A stretch of 43,735 nt of DNA from Bacteroidota bacterium. GTDB lineage: Bacteria > Bacteroidota > Bacteroidia > J057 > JAJTIE01. Positions within the stretch are counted from its first letter, which is position 1; the number at the start of each line of letters is the position of its first letter. The stretch lies in contig JAHBTG010000017.1 in assembly GCA_019638695.1 (NCBI GenBank), positions 1 to 43,735 on the forward strand, in the 5' to 3' direction. The notes beneath the pieces are model-generated. The model was not told where the DNA came from, made no database searches, and saw only the letters and a program-made list of their open reading frames with translations. Positions 1-42,470 of this stretch are shown in pieces. Made by a program: the position numbers and the translations under genes.

Positions 1-3000
1 GGCACCAGCCAGTTCCTGGATGCTTATGGCTACAACCTGATCGCCCTGAATGCGACAGGTCCCATCCTGTATGGAAAGAAGACCAACCCTGAGACCGGTG
101 AGCTTCTGCGGGATAGCCTGGGTAACACTATTGTAGATAAGAACAAAGCTAAGCTGGGTTTTATCGTTGCCGGGGAAGCTACTTTTAATAAAGATGCAGA
201 CCCTGCCTATGGAGGTATCTACCGTGTCAAGGATAATGTGCTGAGTGATCTGGAACAAAACCCCCTGCAACCCGGGGAAGGCAGCCAGTTCTTCTTTGTG
301 AACCGCGCCAATTTTGTGCGCAAAAGTGATATGGAAACCATAAAGGCCAAAGAGAATGCCTCTCAATGGAATGCCTCTTTCTTCGGCCGCCTGGACTACC
401 GCCTCAATGACAATACCACCATTAACGTGGGTACCAGCTACCGTCGTTTCCAGGGCTATGGGTGGTCTTTGGGCAATTCTCTGTTCTCTCCCCAGGCGAA
501 CGGTTTCCAGACTACGGATAATTACCGGGTATTTGGCCGCATCCAGCAGATCTATATGCCCAAGGATGCCAATAAGACTATCCTGAAGAGCCTTGTATAT
601 CGTGTGCAGGGAGAAGCTCAGCGTGTAAACAGCAATTCCTTTAACCCCGATTTTGGAGATGATCTCTTCAAGTACGGGCATATAGGCAGCTTCTATAACC
701 AGCGAGCAGAGGCCTTTGAAACGATCCTCCCGGGAGATGCCCGCCATAACCCCGTATTTTCTACCGGTCCTTACCTGCAAACCGCCGGTTACCAGGACAC
801 TGTGTGGAGCTTCGACGGCTCTAATAGCAGTAACCCGTTGCTGGCCAACTACAATAATTTCATTTACAACTACATGGCTCGTAACCCCCGCAATTTCAAC
901 GGGGCTCTGTTCCCGGGTGGTGACCTGATGGGCCAGCGTACTTCTGTATACAATTATTTTGACCTGGCACAGCTGGGGGGCCTTAACAATGGTAGCGGCC
1001 CCGCTGCCATTTATTCTATGTATACGGCACCCGGTGCCTATAACTGGGGCTACAGCTATAGCCAGAGCGATATGGTGCGCATAACAGGACAAGCCACCAT
1101 GCGTTTGGCACGCAAGTCCATGGAGAAGAAAAAAGAGGAAGGCGACCTGGGAGAGAAAAACTCGGAAAAAGGCTATCACAACGTAAAAGTGGGCTTTGAG
1201 TTTGACCAGCGTTTTGAGCGTTCCTATGGCGTTTCCCCTTCCGGTATCTGGGGACAGATGCAGCTGCTGGCCAACCGCCACCTCCAAAACCTGGATACTG
1301 CCAATGCGCAGGCCATTTATGATGCCGATGGCTTCTTTACCGGTCGTGTGCACCTGGATCCGCTTCCTGTCCTTTCAGAGCAAAGTACCTTTGATCGCAA
1401 CATGCGCATCAAGCTGGGACTGGACCCCAATGGCCGCGATTTTATCAACCCCCAGCAATATGGCCCGGACTTTTACTCTATGGATATGTTCGGCGTCAGC
1501 GAGTTGTTTAACAGCAGCTTGCAACTGGTTGCCTACAATGGGTATGATTACCTGGGCAATAAAATGAAACGCCGTCCTGCAGAAGACTTTTTCACCGATC
1601 TGCAGAATCGCCCCATCAATGCCTATGCACCCACTTATGTGGCCGCTTATGTAGAAGACCGTTTTGAGCTGGACAACCTTAACCTCCGCCTGGGCCTCCG
1701 GGTAGACCGTTTTGATAACAACCAGCCTGTCCTGAGGGATAAGTACCTGATGGTGCCTGCCTATAACGCGGGCGATATGGCAAACCTGGGCAATATAGAG
1801 CTGCCCTCCAACATTGGCCGGGACTGGGTACCTTATCTTAACCGCCAGATCCAGGACGGTGAGATCATTACCAGCATCAACGATGTTATCGGTTATCGCG
1901 ATCCCAGTAACAACCTGTGGTACGATGCCAATGGCTCTCCGGTAAATCCCCAGTTGCTCCAGGTGAGCGGCCGTGTACAGCCCTATACCAAGAGCGATTC
2001 CATTCAGCCTGCTGCTTTCAAGGACTACGATCCCCGTGTGAATGTGATGCCGCGTATCGCCTTCTCGTTCCCCATCACGGACAAGGCCAACTTTACTGCC
2101 AGTTATGATGTGCTTACACAACGCCCCACAGCAGCCAACGTGGCCAACTACTCCCAGTATATGTTTATCCAGAACCGCGTGACCGGAGCCATCTCCAACC
2201 CGGACCTGGGTGCACAAACCACGATCGATTACCAGGTGGGTTTCTCGCAGAGTCTGGATGAATTTGGCCTCACTGCTTTTACCATCAATGCCTACTACCG
2301 GGAGATGCGGGATATGATCCAGATCGTGCGTAATATCAACGCCTATCCCATTACCTATGATTCCTATGAGAACGTAGACTTTGGTACGGTCAAAGGCCTG
2401 AGCTTCTCCTTTACCACGGCTCGCCTGGGGCAGTTCAGTATCCGTGCCAACTATACCCTGCAGTATGCTACGGGTACGGGTTCGGGCGTAGGTTCTTCTA
2501 CCCGTGCCTTGAACAACATTACGGGATTTGCGCTCCTGCGCAATACGCTTCCGTTGTCCTTTGACCAGCGCCATACTTTTAACGGCGCCGTGCAAATGAC
2601 ATTTGATGAGCGCAAATACATTGGTCCCAAGATTGGCAACTTCTATCCCCTGAAGCGCACCATATTCAGCCTCACCTACAATATTGGCAGCGGTACGCCC
2701 TATACCCGTAACACTTTGCCCAACCCTGCGGATATCCAGGGCGGCCTCAACGAGGTGTTCCAAACCAAGGGGCAGCCTTTTGGCAGCAAACTGCCCATGA
2801 TTTTCAACGTGAATTTCCGTATCCAGAAGAGTGTCAGCCTGGTGCTGAATCCCAATCCGAAGGACGGATACAAGAAGCGTACCCTGGATATGGACTGGTA
2901 TATTGTGTTTAGTAATATGCTGAATATCAAGAATGTCCTGGGCGTATATGCCTACAGTGGCCAGCCCGATAATAGCGGCTACCTGGAGTCTGCCTTTGGT

Positions 3001-3126
3001 CCCCGCCTCATTAACAGCCAGCTGGACCCCGAGGCATTCGTGGATATGTATCGCATCCGCGAACAGAATCCGGGCAACTTTGGTAGCCCTCGTCAAATTC
3101 GTCTAGGCTGTATCTTCAATTTCTAA
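1..3126 (+). CDS. TonB-dependent outer-membrane receptor, 5' end outside window
   Basis: The reading frame is open from base 1, so the start lies upstream; about 1041 residues are visible. The visible part begins near the end of the plug region and continues through a long beta-barrel. It shows alternating aromatic/polar strands, many short turns and a C-terminal Phe (…GCIFNF), as is usual for outer-membrane barrels. TonB-dependent receptors import large or scarce substrates using ExbBD/TonB energy. This one is followed after 20 bases by a secreted protein with a T9SS-like tail and then a PorV/PorQ-like protein, and all three are co-directional. That arrangement suggests one surface system, not a lone siderophore receptor. 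The substrate cannot be read from the sequence. A GTG at 238 is an internal codon, not a start. Confidence 0.88.
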   Translation, partial: GTSQFLDAYGYNLIALNATGPILYGKKTNPETGELLRDSLGNTIVDKNKAKLGFIVAGEATFNKDADPAYGGIYRVKDNVLSDLEQNPLQPGEGSQFFFVNRANFVRKSDMETIKAKENASQWNASFFGRLDYRLNDNTTINVGTSYRRFQGYGWSLGNSLFSPQANGFQTTDNYRVFGRIQQIYMPKDANKTILKSLVYRVQGEAQRVNSNSFNPDFGDDLFKYGHIGSFYNQRAEAFETILPGDARHNPVFSTGPYLQTAGYQDTVWSFDGSNSSNPLLANYNNFIYNYMARNPRNFNGALFPGGDLMGQRTSVYNYFDLAQLGGLNNGSGPAAIYSMYTAPGAYNWGYSYSQSDMVRITGQATMRLARKSMEKKKEEGDLGEKNSEKGYHNVKVGFEFDQRFERSYGVSPSGIWGQMQLLANRHLQNLDTANAQAIYDADGFFTGRVHLDPLPVLSEQSTFDRNMRIKLGLDPNGRDFINPQQYGPDFYSMDMFGVSELFNSSLQLVAYNGYDYLGNKMKRRPAEDFFTDLQNRPINAYAPTYVAAYVEDRFELDNLNLRLGLRVDRFDNNQPVLRDKYLMVPAYNAGDMANLGNIELPSNIGRDWVPYLNRQIQDGEIITSINDVIGYRDPSNNLWYDANGSPVNPQLLQVSGRVQPYTKSDSIQPAAFKDYDPRVNVMPRIAFSFPITDKANFTASYDVLTQRPTAANVANYSQYMFIQNRVTGAISNPDLGAQTTIDYQVGFSQSLDEFGLTAFTINAYYREMRDMIQIVRNINAYPITYDSYENVDFGTVKGLSFSFTTARLGQFSIRANYTLQYATGTGSGVGSSTRALNNITGFALLRNTLPLSFDQRHTFNGAVQMTFDERKYIGPKIGNFYPLKRTIFSLTYNIGSGTPYTRNTLPNPADIQGGLNEVFQTKGQPFGSKLPMIFNVNFRIQKSVSLVLNPNPKDGYKKRTLDMDWYIVFSNMLNIKNVLGVYAYSGQPDNSGYLESAFGPRLINSQLDPEAFVDMYRIREQNPGNFGSPRQIRLGCIFNF

Positions 3127-22627: not shown

Positions 22628-23587
22628 TTAGTATACCCATTTTTCCACCGTGTATTTAAGCGTAGAAGGCAGCGCCCTGAGAAACCAGCTGTTTAGCTCA
22701 AAAGCAAAGCTGGGTTGCATATAGCAGTTGATCGTGCACCCTTCGCATTGGGGCGAACGTCCTTCCTGCGCCCGTTCCCGGGCTACCAGTGGAGACTGCC
22801 ACAGGTCATACAGGCGGTTCTCTATAGGATAATGCTGCTCGCCCAGGTGATAACAGGGGAGTACCAGCGCATTCTCAGGTGAAATGACCACCGTACTGCT
22901 GGCCGCCCGGCAAACGGGGTGGTCCGTGTGGTTGCCGCCCTGTTCCCGCAGGGTGAGAAAAGCGTCATTGAGGTAGATACCCGGCTGCCTGCCCCAGTGC
23001 CTCAGCGCCTGGAAACTGGCTGCCTGCAACTGGCTGCCCACGGTATTGTATTCAAAGATAGGGTTCAGGATCAGCAGCAGGTCCCGCGGACGGGTGATCT
23101 CGCGGTAGATGCGCTCCAGGTGCGGCAGGTTTTCATCCGTCACGGTAAATAGCACATCCGGCCGCTCTCCCAGCTCTGCCGCAATATCCAGGCTGCGCAT
23201 GACAAAATCAAAGCAGGCTACTCCACGCCCGGTATCGTGTGTAAGGGCATCTGCCGCATCCAGGCTGAAGTGTAGCATATCCACCTTGCCCTTCAGCGCC
23301 TGGGCTTGTTTGGGATAGAGCAGGCCGTTGGTGGTGACGGTGGTGATCAGGCCCTCGTCCCTCGCCAGGCTCAGAAACTCCGGTAACTGGCGGTGCAGTA
23401 AGGGTTCTCCGCCGGTGAAGTCCACCACGCGCACGCCCAGCCGTTTGAGATCCCGCAGATTGGCTGCTACATGCTCGGGTGTGGCATAGGGACTGGGTTT
23501 CTCCCAGATGTCGCAAAAACTGCAGGCCGCATTACACCGGTAGGTCAGGTAGTAGTTGCATAATATGGGATGATGGAAGAGGCGCAT
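22628..23587 (-). CDS. Radical SAM protein with C-terminal Cys cluster
   Basis: 319 residues from ATG 23587; an in-frame TTG at 23611 is less likely. The radical SAM CxxxCxxC motif is in YRCNAACSFCDIW near the N-terminus, followed by FTGGEPLLH (SAM contact). The C-terminal part has Cys-rich segments (HPVCRAAS, LPCYHLGE, QCEGCTINCYMQ) that could ligate an auxiliary cluster, as in SPASM-type enzymes. The substrate is unknown, and no peptide precursor is seen nearby. It is divergent from dnaB across the DnaA-box region. Confidence 0.9.
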   Translation of the reverse strand: MRLFHHPILCNYYLTYRCNAACSFCDIWEKPSPYATPEHVAANLRDLKRLGVRVVDFTGGEPLLHRQLPEFLSLARDEGLITTVTTNGLLYPKQAQALKGKVDMLHFSLDAADALTHDTGRGVACFDFVMRSLDIAAELGERPDVLFTVTDENLPHLERIYREITRPRDLLLILNPIFEYNTVGSQLQAASFQALRHWGRQPGIYLNDAFLTLREQGGNHTDHPVCRAASSTVVISPENALVLPCYHLGEQHYPIENRLYDLWQSPLVARERAQEGRSPQCEGCTINCYMQPSFAFELNSWFLRALPSTLKYTVEKWVY

Positions 23588-23672
23588 CCGGTAACGGGAA
23601 GATAGAGGCAATTTACTATGCCGGCGGCTTAGGTTTTAAATGAATAGCAATTCTTCCCAAGTCAAGTAAAAG

Positions 23673-23762
23673 TTATCTACGCAATGTGCATAAGAAAAGC
23701 GCCTGATTTACAGGACCTTAGCGATAATCTGTCCTGTGGATAACTGAAAGTCCTTATCCACA
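23673..23762. promoter_or_regulatory. DnaA-box cluster upstream of dnaB
   Basis: TTATCCACA at 23754-23762 and its inverse TGTGGATAA at 23735-23743 are two perfect DnaA boxes forming an inverted repeat with a 10-base spacer. A third, TGTGCATAA at 23685-23693, is the inverse of TTATGCACA, which fits TTWTNCACA. A near-match TTATCTACG lies at 23673-23681. All fall in the 291-base gap between the radical SAM gene and dnaB. The likely role is DnaA control of dnaB or titration of DnaA; an origin is possible but not shown. Confidence 0.65.
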
Positions 23763-23764
23763 AG

Positions 23765-23772
23765 TATCTTTG
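23765..23772 (+). promoter_or_regulatory. Candidate -7 element of dnaB promoter
   Basis: TATCTTTG matches TAnnTTTG. It begins two bases after a perfect DnaA box (23754-23762), so bound DnaA would cover the -33 to -7 region. The -33 itself is not a TTTG. The leader to dnaB would be about 100 bases. Confidence 0.5.
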
Positions 23773-23878: not shown

Positions 23879-25465
23879 ATGGCTATGGAGAGTGCACCAG
23901 ATCTTACCCCGGACCGTTCCGCCCGCAAGGGGACTGCCCGCACAGTCTCCCTGCCTGTGGCCGGCAACCTGCCCCATGCCATGGAGCTGGAGCAGGCCAT
24001 ACTGGGCGCCATCATGCTGGAGAAGGATGCCTTTATCCGGGTAACGGATGTCCTTAGCCAGGACATGTTCTACAAGCCTTCGCACCCGCATATCTTTGAG
24101 GCTATGCTGCTGCTCAGCAATGCCAGTGAGCCGATCGATAAGCTCACGGTGGTGGAGAAGCTCCGGAAGATGGATAAGCTGAGCCTGGTAGGCGGTCCTT
24201 ATTATATTGCAGAGCTGACCAGCCGGGTGGCCTCTGCCGCCAACATAGAGCATCATGCCCACATTGTTGCACAGAAGTACTTGCAGCGGGAGCTTGTCCG
24301 CATTTGCCGGAACATTGCCGACGAAGCTGTGGATGAAAGCTCGGATATCTTTGAGCTGATGGACGCTGCCGAAAAGCAGCTGTATGAGCTGAGCACAGAC
24401 AAGCTGCGCAGGGAGAGTGTGAGCATGAGTCACCTGGCGCACCAAACCATACAAGAGCTGCAGGCGCTCATTGCCAAAGGCGATGGGGTGACGGGCGTCA
24501 CCACCGGTTTTGTCAAACTGGACGAGCTGACCAGCGGCTGGCAACCCTCGGATATGGTGGTGCTGGCTGCCCGCCCCGCTATGGGTAAAACGGCTTTTGT
24601 CCTGAGCCTGGCCCGCAATGCCGCTTTGCTGGATAACAAGGCCGTGGCGATCTTCAGCCTGGAGATGGCCGCTACCCAGCTGGTCAGGCGCCTGATCAGT
24701 GCCGAAGCGGAGATCGAACTGAGCAAGATGCGTAACGGGCAGCTGAGCGATTATGAATGGCAGCAGCTGAACCAGCGCATTACCCGCCTGAGCGAGGCGC
24801 CCATCTTTATTGACGATACCCCGGCTCTCAGCCTGTTTGACCTGCGCACCAAGTGCCGCCGCCTCAAGACCCAGCATGATATCCAGCTGATCATCATAGA
24901 CTACCTGCAGCTGATGACTGCCGAGTCCCGCAAGGGTGGCAACCGAGAGCAGGAAATATCTGCCATTTCCCGTGGCCTCAAGGTGCTGGCCAAAGAACTG
25001 AATGTACCGGTCATTGCCCTCAGCCAGCTGAGCCGCGCCCCGGAGCTTCGTTCCGGTTTTGACAAGCGGCCCCAGTTGAGCGACCTGCGCGAATCCGGCG
25101 CCATTGAGCAGGATGCGGATATGGTGCTCTTTCTCTTCCGCCCGGATTATTATGGCCTCACGGAAGATGAGGACGGCAACAGTACCCGCGAGATGTGCGA
25201 AGTGATCATCGCCAAGCAGCGGAATGGACCCATTGGTTCAGCTAAACTCCGTTTTGTGGGCCAGTTCTCCCGCTTTCAGGATTTTGACCCCGATTATTTC
25301 TCCGGCAATATGCCCAGCGCGTTCTATAACGGCGGCTTTGAGGGCAATGGCGGAAGCCCTTCCGGTGGCGCACCACCGGCGGACCTGGGGGCCGGCTTCA
25401 AGATATTCCCCTCCAAGATGAACCAGGAAGAGGACCTGGAGGGAGGGTTTACCGCACCGTTCTAG
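23879..25465 (+). CDS. dnaB: Replicative DNA helicase DnaB
   Basis: 528 residues. The N-terminal domain (about 30-180) begins NLPHAMELEQAILGAIM. The RecA-like helicase domain has Walker A ARPAMGKTA (231-239), FSLEM, Walker B LIIIDYLQLM (337-346) and the Gln/Arg region SQLSRAPELR…DLRESGAIEQDAD. The C-terminal tail is Gly/Pro-rich and acidic, as in Bacteroidota DnaB. It unwinds DNA at the fork as a hexamer and recruits primase. DnaA boxes lie just upstream. The base composition is host-like and changes sharply after its stop. Confidence 0.97.
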   Translation: MAMESAPDLTPDRSARKGTARTVSLPVAGNLPHAMELEQAILGAIMLEKDAFIRVTDVLSQDMFYKPSHPHIFEAMLLLSNASEPIDKLTVVEKLRKMDKLSLVGGPYYIAELTSRVASAANIEHHAHIVAQKYLQRELVRICRNIADEAVDESSDIFELMDAAEKQLYELSTDKLRRESVSMSHLAHQTIQELQALIAKGDGVTGVTTGFVKLDELTSGWQPSDMVVLAARPAMGKTAFVLSLARNAALLDNKAVAIFSLEMAATQLVRRLISAEAEIELSKMRNGQLSDYEWQQLNQRITRLSEAPIFIDDTPALSLFDLRTKCRRLKTQHDIQLIIIDYLQLMTAESRKGGNREQEISAISRGLKVLAKELNVPVIALSQLSRAPELRSGFDKRPQLSDLRESGAIEQDADMVLFLFRPDYYGLTEDEDGNSTREMCEVIIAKQRNGPIGSAKLRFVGQFSRFQDFDPDYFSGNMPSAFYNGGFEGNGGSPSGGAPPADLGAGFKIFPSKMNQEEDLEGGFTAPF

Positions 25466-25480
25466 TTTTGCAGAAAAATT

Positions 25481-26461
25481 ATGAAAAAACTTCTTACAAG
25501 TAAAAAATATAAAAAGAGAATATTAAAGAATCAATTACGTGAAAAGAAAAAACTAAAAAGAAATAAGAAATATATTATAATTCAGTTCTTGCCTGAACGT
25601 ATCTCAGTAGTCTCTCCGAAAGTTTTGGATATAATTAGTAATCCTGAAGAATCATTAAGGTTTATATATAAACTTGAATATCATCGGAAAAAAACAGATA
25701 GAATTACTGTTAACTTTGAGAATCTTGTTATTTGCCATAAATCAGGCATCATGCTGTTATCAGTAGCATTGTCTGGTTTTTACTTTAAGCCTACAATAAC
25801 TGAATCTAAACTAGATTCGGTGAAAGAGATGTTTAGAAATAATGATGTATATAGTTATTTTTCTAACTATAAAGGTAAAGACCAAGGTAGTGTTCAAGAA
25901 AGAGTATTAAAGAGGAAATTTATATCGCAAAGTGATATTGAATCATTGAAACGAATTGCTGCACAGCATACTTATATGAATGATGGTATTATTCCCTTAA
26001 GAATCGAGACAAGTGTTCAAGATGCATGTGCTGAGTTTATTCAAAATACGTTGGACCATACTGATAAATATTGGTATTTCTCCTTAGAGAGATATCCTAA
26101 TAATATATCTGGATTTTTATTTTTAGATAGAGGAAAAGGTGTTTTTGAAACAGCTAAATACTATCGTGAATCACCTGAGGATATTTTTAGACCAATTGAG
26201 ATGATGAGATATTTTAAAGAAAACAAAAAGTATAAAATACTTGAGAATGTTTTAAGGAGAAGATTTATAATTACAAGTAAAAAAGATAAAACTAGGGGAC
26301 AAGGGCTTTTTAAGATATACGATGGATTTGCCAAAAGAAATTATCATAATTTAATAGTTATTTCTAATAACGCATACTGTAATTTTTCTAATAATATGAT
26401 GAGAAGTTTGAGAGTTCAGTTGAAAGGTATTTTTGTGTATTTTGAAATTAAACCAGAATAA
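25481..26461 (+). CDS. AT-rich gene: STAS-like region plus GHKL-type ATP-binding domain
   Basis: 326 residues with a very Lys-rich N-terminus. Residues about 31-100 resemble a STAS-type fold (DRITVNFENLVICHKSGIMLLSVALS). The second half has an HATPase-like pattern: N-box D181-ACAE185-FIQ188N189-TLDH193, a D-box-like LDRGKGV (215-221) and a lid RGQGLFKIYD (272-281). No phospho-acceptor His domain is seen, so it resembles anti-sigma or SiaB-type kinases more than a sensor kinase. It is first in an AT-rich trio with a DUF4325 protein and a membrane protein. Codons are AT-rich, unlike flanking dnaB, which indicates transfer. The domain calls come from motifs only, and the function is not known. 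Confidence 0.72.
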   Translation: MKKLLTSKKYKKRILKNQLREKKKLKRNKKYIIIQFLPERISVVSPKVLDIISNPEESLRFIYKLEYHRKKTDRITVNFENLVICHKSGIMLLSVALSGFYFKPTITESKLDSVKEMFRNNDVYSYFSNYKGKDQGSVQERVLKRKFISQSDIESLKRIAAQHTYMNDGIIPLRIETSVQDACAEFIQNTLDHTDKYWYFSLERYPNNISGFLFLDRGKGVFETAKYYRESPEDIFRPIEMMRYFKENKKYKILENVLRRRFIITSKKDKTRGQGLFKIYDGFAKRNYHNLIVISNNAYCNFSNNMMRSLRVQLKGIFVYFEIKPE

Positions 26462-26471
26462 ACTAAATTTG
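26441..26471 (+). promoter_or_regulatory. Consensus promoter inside the AT-rich cassette
   Basis: TTTG (26441-26444), a 19-base spacer, then TAAATTTG (26464-26471): a full match to the Bacteroidota consensus. It overlaps the end of the ATPase-like gene and would start transcription near 26477, 16 bases before the DUF4325 ATG. The second and third genes can therefore be expressed without the first. Confidence 0.65.
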
Positions 26472-26492
26472 CAATGAATTTGTTATGGTAAC

Positions 26493-26831
26493 ATGGAAAA
26501 ACCAGCTATAGAAGAGATTAACATTGCCAATGACTTTAGTTTGACGCCAATTGGTAGGCTAAAGTCCCAATCTGATTCATCTGGCGAAGCTTTTCGATTG
26601 GATATTTTGGAGCCTAAATTAAAGCGCGCCATTGATTCTGGAAAGAAACTTAGAGTTAATATGAATGGTACTATTGGTTATCCAACTCCATTCTTGCATG
26701 AAGCATTTGGTAAGCTTAAGCTAAAATTTGATCTTAAGGTTATAAAAGAGCATCTCATTATAACTCATGATAACAATGAGTATGTTATGAAAGTATGGGA
26801 CTATATTGAAAATGCAGGTGAAATACTTTGA
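26493..26831 (+). CDS. STAS-like protein (DUF4325 family)
   Basis: 112 residues. It resembles DUF4325: FRLDILEPKLKRAI, then a central strand KLRVNMNGTIGYPTPFLHEAFGKL (the usual family pattern is a hydrophobic strand, a loop and FxxEAFGKL) and a short C-terminal strand HLIITHDNNEYVMKVWDYI. DUF4325 proteins are predicted STAS-like folds and are commonly found beside HATPase-type proteins, as here. This suggests a partner-switching pair in which the ATPase protein modifies or binds this one. It has its own promoter (26441-26471). Its stop overlaps the following membrane gene. Confidence 0.75.
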   Translation: MEKPAIEEINIANDFSLTPIGRLKSQSDSSGEAFRLDILEPKLKRAIDSGKKLRVNMNGTIGYPTPFLHEAFGKLKLKFDLKVIKEHLIITHDNNEYVMKVWDYIENAGEIL

Positions 26832-27414
26832 TAAAAAAGCTGTATTTATTTTTATTATATTGCTGGCATGTCTAGTTATTTCTCTTATAGTATATTCAGC
26901 TTTGAATAAAGCTGTTAATTATGAGATTAAATTTGGAGAGCTTATTACGTTCATTGCTACTGTAATTCTAGCTTTATTTATCCCAATAGGAGTACAAACT
27001 GCTTTAGAAATTAGGGCTAATCAGAAACATATATTTTTACAACATCTAACTGCTATTAAAGATAAAATAAATTTATTATATAATGATTTTATGCAGCGAT
27101 CATTTGATCAAATGGGTATTCTAGATATGATTACTTATACATCGTATATTGCAAAGCTAGATGATATTATTGCTGAACTCTCGGTTTTAAAAAAGCTTTC
27201 GAATACGCATTATGAAAAAAACAGTAATATTGAAAGTAGTTTAGATAAGGTTGCAAAATTGCTTTGGAAATTTCATGAAGCTATTTCAGATAGTACATTT
27301 AATGATAAAGTTCCCTTAATAACTCAACTTCAGATTGCCAAAGTAAAATCTGTTTATTGGTCATTAGACTATCATCTTTCTAGTAATATATTGCAGTTTA
27401 ATCGTTTGCAATGA
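26812..27414 (+). CDS. Small two-helix membrane protein of the AT-rich cassette
   Basis: About 200 residues from ATG 26812; an in-frame TTG at 26806 and GTG at 26818 are alternatives. Two hydrophobic segments lie near the N-terminus (about residues 9-31, AVFIFIILLACLVISLIVYS, and about 42-62, ELITFIATVILALFIPIGV). A mostly helical cytoplasmic region follows, with no catalytic motif. The start overlaps the DUF4325 stop by about 20 bases, so the two are coupled. I infer it is the membrane target or effector of the two upstream proteins. No known family recognised. Confidence 0.7.
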   Translation: MQVKYFDKKAVFIFIILLACLVISLIVYSALNKAVNYEIKFGELITFIATVILALFIPIGVQTALEIRANQKHIFLQHLTAIKDKINLLYNDFMQRSFDQMGILDMITYTSYIAKLDDIIAELSVLKKLSNTHYEKNSNIESSLDKVAKLLWKFHEAISDSTFNDKVPLITQLQIAKVKSVYWSLDYHLSSNILQFNRLQ

Positions 27415-38956: not shown

Positions 38957-39008
38957 AGACAAAGAAAGCTTCAATTTGTTCAATCTATGCTTCAAATATA
39001 GATTAAGT

Positions 39009-41507
39009 CTACAAACTAACAGGTATCTCAATTGGAACTTCAATCATATTCTTAACCGTAGTGTATAACTCAATATCTTGAATAGGTGTTTCTAATGAAA
39101 CAATTAAAGAATAACGAGTTTTTGTTTCTACCTTTTTTAAATGCTTTCTTTCTCTCCACCAGCCAATAATAGGATAAACGGCTATGAGATTACAGGTGGC
39201 TAAAGCGGCAGCAGTTCCTTCCCAGTAATCGGAATGAACAGAACCACTGCTACGATTATTTACGCCTACAACCCATCTATCACTTCCAGAATTAGTATTT
39301 ATCTCCTCATCCTCCTCTCGTGCGGCACTATTAACTCTCTTCCTGAACTCATTTTCACTCTCTCTGATATTATTAATGTCAAAGCGTAAGCCATGTGATT
39401 GATAGCGATATTTATCTTTCCACCCAATCTCACCAGCTCCAGGCTCTATATAATAGGAAAGAGTAACCTTGAGTTTTACAGGGACCTCTCCAAGCTCAAG
39501 TAGTAGATCTGTGGGCCATGGAAAATTAAAAAAATGAATTTCATTTGTTTCTGGTTGGCCATTTTCTTTAATATTAAATGGCTGAATCGTTTCTTGTGCA
39601 ATAAATGTTAATGCACTCTCTTGACTATATAAGGCCCTCTCAAGCAGCGGAATACCATGCCCAAATACCCTTAGGAGCCTCCGAAAATCACCACGATTCC
39701 CACCCCGAACTGCTAGTTGATTATACATGGCGTTATGCCAGTTTGCAGAATGAATGATCAGTCCTCGGATTGTTTCTGGCCAGGCATTTGGATATTCATA
39801 AGCTATTTTAGCCGCAAACCAAGCCGCTTGTGCCGTTGCTGCACTTGTTGCATTAATTGTGTCAAATGGCTTAATATTAAAAGATTTAGAGGTAGACAAT
39901 AACTCAAGGTCTTCATGTGAAGTAATGGAGTTATCAGGCGTTCTTAATAGGTTACCTCCTTCAAAGACAACATCAGGTTTGATGGGCCACTTTTTCTCCC
40001 AAATAAGAGATGTAGAGCTATATGGAGAAAGCTCGCCAGTATTTGCAACAGGGGTATAATTATAAAAATCTGGATTATTTACTTGTATCTTTTCTGTATA
40101 TGCTCCTATTATTAGGGCATTCCATGCTTGTGCTGGATTCTCTATTGTAGTAGATAGATTTGATTCTGGGTAGTTTCTCCATAATTCAGGATCTTTAATA
40201 TTTCCTGCTGAGATAATTATTAATCTTTGGTTCTCTCCGTCTCCAAAACAGAGATTATCTATTGCTCCTGACCAAGAAGATGGCCTTCCTTTCTCTGCAT
40301 CTTCTTTGGAAGTTACAGCCATACAATACACAAGAATCATCTTAGGATTTTGAATCTCAGCCCGAGATAAACCTTGAGCAGTAATATCTCCCCATAGTTC
40401 TTTGGGAGTTTCCCCTTGTGATTCTGGGGGAATAATTTTGACTGAGCATAACTTATGAGTAATAGTAACTTTACTAGTAGTGGCTAATACCTCTTCTAAT
40501 CTACCATATCCAGCGATTCCTGCCATTAGTGTACCATGCCCACTACGATCATAATGGTCATTGGTGCCCCACAGGGGATTAACTGCCATTGTATTGATAT
40601 CCTCAATGAGTGGTTGCAAAAGCTCATGTCCATTATTTACTCCTGTATCTAAAATACAAACCCTAACTCTTCCTTCTAAAACATCTAATCTTTGACGTAA
40701 ATCTTCTACCCATTGTTGTTGTTCAATTGTGTTTTCGTTTCTCCAAAACCCAGCTAAATCCTGACTTGTACGAAATTCGGCCAATTGGTCACTTTGTAAT
40801 ATGAGTTCAATTAATTGTTGCCTATTTGCATTGATTAATAAAACAGCCCTTTCAGGGAAAATAATAACACTTTCTTTGTAGGGTATTGCAACGCTGTCAA
40901 GTGTAGCTCTAAAAGCTCGAATTTGTTCCTGCTCCTTACTATCTTTTGTATTGATATTTAACCATACTTCACACCATTTTGGACTTTCTGTGGGTATAAG
41001 TCGAACTCTAGATGTCCATAATCCTTCCAGTAATGCAATACTTACATCTTCAATACTATTTACAAGAGATGAATTTTTAGGTTTGCCATTTCGAGTATCT
41101 TTGGTTCGGTACTCTTGAATCTTATGGATAAAATGTCCTTCTTTTCCATTTGGGACATATACCGTTGCTCTTATTTGCTTACGATCTTCATCAAGAGTAA
41201 TTTCTTTTACATTTAATAGTCGTATATTTTTTCCGATATCCTCTAAGCTCTTAGTAATTAGATCATGATCCGCCGAGCTTGTAAATGAAATATAGGTGCC
41301 ATCCCTTGTGGGTATCTGTTCGGCACTTCGTTGCTGTTGTAAGCTTTCTTTTTCTTTCCAGATGGTATCAAATTGTTGTAAAAGCTTATCACTATGAGTC
41401 GTTCTGTCTCGGTCTGGTATATTAACTTGTCCTCCTAGCTTAGGGGGTGTTCTGTATTTCTCACTCCTTACATTTTCTGTGATAAAAAAGTGTTTGTAAT
41501 TTGACAT
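39009..41507 (-). CDS. ietS: Subtilisin-like serine protease, IetS-like
   Basis: 832 residues. The catalytic triad of family S8 is complete: D287 in VCILDTGVNNGH, H324 in DRSGHGTLMAGIAG and S555 in INATSAATAQAAW, with N436 (IISAGN) as oxyanion residue. An N-terminal region of about 275 residues has no signal peptide, so the enzyme acts in the cytoplasm. The C-terminal about 250 residues are of unknown fold. It lies 9 bases after an AAA ATPase gene. A two-gene AAA ATPase/subtilase operon is the composition of the Iet (IetA-IetS) anti-phage and plasmid-incompatibility systems. Codons are AT-rich. The function is inferred from family pairing. Confidence 0.8.
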   Translation of the reverse strand: MSNYKHFFITENVRSEKYRTPPKLGGQVNIPDRDRTTHSDKLLQQFDTIWKEKESLQQQRSAEQIPTRDGTYISFTSSADHDLITKSLEDIGKNIRLLNVKEITLDEDRKQIRATVYVPNGKEGHFIHKIQEYRTKDTRNGKPKNSSLVNSIEDVSIALLEGLWTSRVRLIPTESPKWCEVWLNINTKDSKEQEQIRAFRATLDSVAIPYKESVIIFPERAVLLINANRQQLIELILQSDQLAEFRTSQDLAGFWRNENTIEQQQWVEDLRQRLDVLEGRVRVCILDTGVNNGHELLQPLIEDINTMAVNPLWGTNDHYDRSGHGTLMAGIAGYGRLEEVLATTSKVTITHKLCSVKIIPPESQGETPKELWGDITAQGLSRAEIQNPKMILVYCMAVTSKEDAEKGRPSSWSGAIDNLCFGDGENQRLIIISAGNIKDPELWRNYPESNLSTTIENPAQAWNALIIGAYTEKIQVNNPDFYNYTPVANTGELSPYSSTSLIWEKKWPIKPDVVFEGGNLLRTPDNSITSHEDLELLSTSKSFNIKPFDTINATSAATAQAAWFAAKIAYEYPNAWPETIRGLIIHSANWHNAMYNQLAVRGGNRGDFRRLLRVFGHGIPLLERALYSQESALTFIAQETIQPFNIKENGQPETNEIHFFNFPWPTDLLLELGEVPVKLKVTLSYYIEPGAGEIGWKDKYRYQSHGLRFDINNIRESENEFRKRVNSAAREEDEEINTNSGSDRWVVGVNNRSSGSVHSDYWEGTAAALATCNLIAVYPIIGWWRERKHLKKVETKTRYSLIVSLETPIQDIELYTTVKNMIEVPIEIPVSL

Positions 41508-41516
41508 TTTAAAATA

Positions 41517-42470
41517 TTATTGATGATATGCAGCATTTCGATCTTTAATGGCTTTTAATATCAACTGGTTATTCATTTGTTGTTTTTCATTTAAAATAGT
41601 TTCTTTTATGGCATCTAAGCATGCAAGTGAGATTTCTGCGTGACTTAATCCGTTTATATTTGGTAGGAGACTATTAAAATTAAGTTTCTTTCCGTAACGT
41701 GATAAACGACTCTTTAGAAGGGCTAGTTTTTCATCTTTATCAGGTAAATGATATAAAATAACATCATCAAATCTGCGAAAAAGGGCCTGGTCTAGGAGTG
41801 CTTTATTATTTGTTATTGCTATGATGAGACTGTCAGAATTATCACGCTCTATAAATTGTAAAAAAGAGTTTAGTATCCTACGCATTTCTCCTACATCATT
41901 TTCCCTACTTCTTTCACCCCCAATTGCATCAAATTCGTCAAACAGATAAACGCCTTTTTTCTGTTCAATTAAGTCGAATACTTGTCTCAATTTTGCACTA
42001 GTTTCTCCCATATATTTAGTTACCATTTTATCCATGAGGATGGTATACAAAGGGAGATCTAACTCATTGGCTATTATAGATGCTGTTAATGTTTTTCCGG
42101 TCCCTGGAGGGCCAGACAACAAGATTTTTCTTCTATTTTCCAAATCATGCTTGCGAAGTTTATCGCGCTGTATGAACTCAGAAATAATACGTCCTATCTT
42201 ATTTTTTATATCATTTGAAGCAATAATATCACTAAGATTTACAGACGGTACATTCTCAAGAATGAGACCTTGTAGCTCAGGCGAGAATGTTTTTGATTTA
42301 TGTCTATTCTCCTTAGATTTATCAATAATTACTTTAATATCATTTGCCACACCAGTATGCCCAAGCTTAGCTTCATGAGCCGCTATTTGGAGCGCTACAG
42401 TAGTAAATCGCTCTGGCTCATTGTTATAATGAGCCCTTATTAAAGATATTATGTACTCGGCTTTTGCCAT
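41517..42470 (-). CDS. ietA: AAA ATPase, IetA-like
   Basis: 317 residues. An N-terminal helical region (1-80) precedes an AAA domain with Walker A GPPGTGKT (120-127), Walker B YLFDEFD (175-181), sensor-1-like IIAITNN (216-222) and the arginine-finger region ALFRRFDD (229-236). It is one of the smaller AAA modules, like the ATPase of Iet systems. ietS follows after 9 bases, so both are one operon. AT-rich composition contrasts with the integrase and host. Its role is probably to sense or remodel a target and control the protease, by analogy. Confidence 0.82.
   Translation of the reverse strand: MAKAEYIISLIRAHYNNEPERFTTVALQIAAHEAKLGHTGVANDIKVIIDKSKENRHKSKTFSPELQGLILENVPSVNLSDIIASNDIKNKIGRIISEFIQRDKLRKHDLENRRKILLSGPPGTGKTLTASIIANELDLPLYTILMDKMVTKYMGETSAKLRQVFDLIEQKKGVYLFDEFDAIGGERSRENDVGEMRRILNSFLQFIERDNSDSLIIAITNNKALLDQALFRRFDDVILYHLPDKDEKLALLKSRLSRYGKKLNFNSLLPNINGLSHAEISLACLDAIKETILNEKQQMNNQLILKAIKDRNAAYHQ

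Follow-up and report, generated by a model that had tools for sequence, protein, structure and literature searches.

DnaA is an established transcription factor for replication genes, and most work on how initiation is coupled to the supply of replisome components has been done in E. coli, Bacillus and Caulobacter. The stretch of DNA analyzed here (the window, 43,735 nucleotides) is one whole contig (C56) of a Bacteroidota draft genome of 2.9 Mb in 146 contigs (G000, hereafter the window genome), and it contains a cluster of DnaA boxes in front of a dnaB gene. Does this cluster control dnaB, does it mainly hold DnaA, does it serve another protein or another gene, or does it mark the chromosomal origin?

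The box cluster and its downstream gene

The initial annotation described two perfect inverted DnaA boxes, a third box fitting TTWTNCACA and a near-match within 90 bases, and these were found at exactly the positions given. The features of the region are:

22628..23611, minus strand: divergent radical SAM protein gene (PF04055), not conserved as dnaB neighbour in relatives
23673..23681, plus strand: near-match to the DnaA box, TTATCTACG, with two mismatches; a weak site or no site
23685..23693, minus strand: DnaA box TTATGCACA, one mismatch to TTATCCACA, fitting TTWTNCACA
23735..23743, minus strand: perfect DnaA box TTATCCACA, overlapping the position expected of a -33 element
23754..23762, plus strand: perfect DnaA box TTATCCACA, 2 bp before the -7 element
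23765..23772, plus strand: TATCTTTG, candidate Bacteroidota -7 promoter element of dnaB (consensus in PMC7366714), also present before dnaB in the nearest relative (G001)
23879..25465, plus strand: dnaB, replicative DNA helicase (TIGR00665)

The perfect boxes at 23735 and 23754 form an inverted pair with 10 bp between them, within an intergenic region of 267 bp with a GC content of 0.41. It is the clustering of the boxes, and not their number, that is unusual: TTWTNCACA is not over-represented in the window as a whole (four found versus 2.99 expected). Three boxes within 90 bp, or two TTATCCACA within 30 bp, occurred in none of 1,000 dinucleotide shuffles of the window, and three boxes or two TTATCCACA in none of 20,000 shuffles of the intergenic region. 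The clustering is therefore not due to chance.

The gene downstream of the cluster is indeed dnaB, for the replicative helicase (TIGR00665 match of 543 bits versus a cut-off of 385), and the DnaA of the window genome has a C-terminal box-binding domain (PF08299). In two relatives the dnaB match is split within a single long open frame (G004:C69:164430-166847, 861 aa; G020:C502:1239-3170, 695 aa), as if it carried an in-frame insertion such as an intein.

Elsewhere in the window, two stretches are low in GC (0.30 at 26001-27000 and 0.34-0.39 at 39000-42000, versus about 0.52). An S8 peptidase-like gene (39009-41507) lies inside the second stretch; its match to NF042956 is weak and below the cut-off.

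Boxes upstream of dnaB in related genomes

The dnaB gene was located by tblastn in each of 21 genomes from the same order, and the 400 bp preceding its start were examined (for G016, 278 bp). At least one TTWTNCACA is found in 15 of these 21 regions and at least two in nine; the genomes are related, so that the counts are not independent, and the boxes are spread over six families (f1, f2, f4, f5, f7, and f8). No box was found before dnaB in families f3 and f6 and in some members of f4, which counts against a role of the boxes in dnaB control, as does the situation outside the order, where TTATCCACA is present in only one of 78 dnaB upstream regions of other Bacteroidota orders (chance level).

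As a control for composition, every permutation of TTATCCACA was counted in the same upstream sequences. TTATCCACA itself occurs before dnaB in nine of the 21 genomes (16 sites), while the average permutation scores 0.08 and none reaches nine. No other 9-mer exceeds it in the number of genomes, the second commonest being TTTTCCACA (8/21). The conservation before dnaB that the initial annotation had proposed as a check is thus borne out in the order. Boxes are much scarcer upstream of other genes: at least one TTWTNCACA is present for smc in 5/19, holA in 6/21, dnaA in 7/17 and dnaG in 4/20 genomes; TTATCCACA precedes holA in four genomes, likewise above all its permutations. In genome G011, the only place genome-wide where three TTATCCACA fall within 100 bp is upstream of dnaB.

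The gene upstream of dnaB changes among the relatives. It is ftsY-like in G014 and G015, TonB-receptor-like in G010, G012, and G017, and different again elsewhere (these names were read by eye from the sequences, except for the radical SAM gene, assigned by PF04055). Because the neighbour changes in this way, the boxes, as read from these genomes, follow dnaB independently of the neighbouring gene.

The recurrence before dnaB in related families, even in those where the rest of the neighbourhood differs, suggests that the initiator controls helicase supply. We give a probability of about 0.6 to the explanation that DnaA binds the cluster and thereby controls dnaB, tying the supply of helicase to the initiator. 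In this view DnaA would occupy both perfect boxes, probably together with the TTATGCACA box, and would alter the transcription of dnaB, so that helicase supply would track the level or the nucleotide state of the initiator.

Position of the boxes relative to the promoter

Bacteroidota promoters have a -7 consensus TAnnTTTG, plus TTTG near -33 (PMC7366714). The innermost box does end two bases before such an element, as initially annotated: the perfect boxes lie 2 and 21 bp upstream of the predicted promoter element TATCTTTG. The inner boxes would thereby lie over the -33/-7 stretch, where bound DnaA would exclude RNA polymerase. Since these two boxes cover the -33/-7 region, repression by polymerase blocking is the likeliest sign of regulation in the window genome.

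The direct repression by promoter covering put forward in the initial annotation is plausible in the window genome only, as the abutting arrangement is not conserved. In the relatives, the boxes lie farther upstream, about 27-167 bp from the candidate -7 element. The nearest relative, G001, has kept TATCTTTG, with a perfect box 83 bp upstream and a one-mismatch box in tandem with it, 2 bp apart; G015 also has tandem boxes 2 bp apart, and the gap between box and candidate -7 element is 75-88 bp in G011, G014, and G015. Given this variable distance, occlusion is not the shared mechanism: what is conserved is the dnaB-linked DnaA site and not the occluding arrangement, and the sign of dnaB regulation may differ between lineages.

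DnaA could therefore also activate dnaB, a variant of the same explanation with the opposite sign that takes the smaller part of the probability given above. The distance of most relatives' boxes from the candidate -7 element is in line with activation. So is the window genome itself at other genes, where a TAnnTTTG follows the ends of the holA, holB, smc, and rpsT boxes at a distance of 26-33 bp, which puts these boxes in an activator-like position. What speaks against activation is the layout at dnaB in the window genome, with the inner box directly next to the -7 element and the other perfect box overlapping the -33 region.

Among the named Bacteroidota loci (L002-L081), TAnnTTTG often starts 12-13 bp before the ATG of dnaB, which would give a leaderless or nearly leaderless message.

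Possible DnaA titration or binding of other proteins

Instead of regulating transcription, the cluster might mainly titrate DnaA or shift its nucleotide state in the manner of datA and DARS of E. coli, its place before dnaB being incidental. Two perfect boxes plus a third suffice to retain DnaA, the window genome as a whole has few perfect boxes (25 in 2.9 Mb), and a variable distance to the promoter fits a site that needs no promoter contact. The datA and DARS loci are, like the dnaB cluster, clusters of DnaA boxes away from oriC; they differ in that they are not defined by a downstream replication gene and rely on sites for the accessory proteins IHF and Fis (PMC5835720). Pure titration would not need the cluster to stay with dnaB, yet it does so despite the change of neighbours and across chromosomal places, including one near the probable terminus in G014. 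We consider this explanation unlikely.

Far less probable still are two other readings, in which a different, dyad-binding repressor uses the inverted pair as its operator or the boxes act on the divergent radical SAM gene. TGTGGATAA-N10-TTATCCACA is an inverted repeat, and a similar repeat (N9) is found between HU and mutY, but the boxes of the relatives are direct, inverted, and tandem with varied spacing, which fits DnaA, as expected, and not a fixed dyad protein. In the relatives the radical SAM gene does not occupy this position, and the changing neighbours argue against control of the neighbouring gene by the boxes.

Location of the chromosomal origin

The reading of the cluster as the chromosomal origin, for which a DnaA-box cluster within an AT-richer intergenic region would speak, has hardly any probability left, as it is disfavoured in the window genome, where the GC skew keeps the same sign on both sides of 23.7 kb (the GC-skew check proposed initially hence gave a negative answer), and contradicted in two relatives with long contigs, G012 and G014, where the skew flips at thiL amid clustered boxes, far from dnaB.

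The skew sampling in both relatives is coarse. In the 7.54-Mb contig of G012, most 20-kb samples taken between 0.4 and 3.6 Mb have negative skew, and most of those between 3.8 and 7.2 Mb have positive skew; for G014 the change falls between 6.7 and 7.2 Mb. In G012, a 1-kb stretch beside thiL at about 3.79 Mb (G012:C1 3.786 Mb, L329) holds six boxes, and thiL at 6.77 Mb in G014 is likewise accompanied by boxes (G014:C1, L344); the name thiL rests on a match to an AIR-synthase-type domain plus our own reading. The distance from thiL to dnaB amounts to 2.9 Mb in G012 and 4.2 Mb in G014. An origin at dnaB was rejected on the basis of this sampling together with the thiL-linked box clusters, and oriC is probably located beside thiL in these two relatives. 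In this large-genome family, the probable oriC by thiL is megabases from dnaA, with dnaA and origin being uncoupled.

In the window genome, a single perfect box lies near the thiL-type gene. With five boxes in about 690 AT-rich bp, the dnaA-alaS intergenic region is a better origin candidate than either thiL or the dnaB site.

Boxes elsewhere in the genome

Sixteen of the 24 TTATCCACA sites read in the window genome are intergenic or just before a start (judged by eye), in a genome that is mostly coding. They include sites upstream of dnaB, holA, holB, and smc, between HU and mutY and between dnaG and nadA; others precede rpsT, fumC, a moeB/thiF-type gene and genes of unknown function. In the nearest relative, dnaB, smc, holA, and the unknown gene at C125 are still preceded by perfect boxes, and one lies in the dnaA-alaS region. 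These positions allow the tentative proposal, which we hold to be rather improbable, that DnaA runs a small replisome regulon comprising the dnaB, holA, holB, smc, HU/mutY, and dnaG/nadA promoters. In G011, 30 of the 90 TTATCCACA sites were read, and as these lie mostly within coding sequence, a broad replication regulon is not evident among them.

Two arrangements deserve mention. An inverted pair, TGTGGATAACC-N5-GGTTATCCACA, is located between the divergent HU-type gene and mutY (G000:C80, L082, 2016-2042), directly after a TATATTTG element. Two tandem TTATCCACA (G000:C125, L083, 2023-2052) precede a gene at 2176-3096 without a match in Pfam or NCBIfam, whose homologue in G001 is preceded by a box as well.

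Comparison with known systems and implications

The link between DnaA and dnaB drawn in the initial annotation is supported by the order-level conservation of the boxes, whatever gene lies next to them, and by their distance from oriC. The closest parallel is Caulobacter crescentus, where dnaB has predicted DnaA boxes and a DnaA-dependent expression (Hottes et al., 2005, as reviewed in PMC8203912). As in the window genome, predicted boxes are located upstream of dnaB, and replication genes of Caulobacter are under DnaA; Caulobacter belongs to another phylum with another promoter type, and DnaA dependence was demonstrated there, whereas here we infer it from conservation.

According to a ChIP-seq study, DnaA of E. 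coli has a compact regulon of replication, repair, and nucleotide targets, binding the same box TTATCCACA with a preference for tandem boxes 2-3 bp apart (PMC11317965). The inverted pair upstream of dnaB, with its gap of 10 bp, differs from this preference, which is a point against control of dnaB by DnaA in the window genome. While boxes precede dnaB here, dnaB is not among the E. coli targets in the passages of that study that were consulted.

A Bacteroidota account of DnaA-dnaB control was not found in the open-access literature searched. DnaA-linked control of dnaB is of a kind already known, and by this literature search the Bacteroidota case is a new member. Should the regulon proposed above be true, the supply of helicase, clamp-loader subunits, and condensin would be tied to the initiator. 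The dnaB-linked cluster offers a simple promoter test of DnaA control. Its persistence across families, although neighbours and chromosomal location vary, suggests that a further phylum uses this kind of control.
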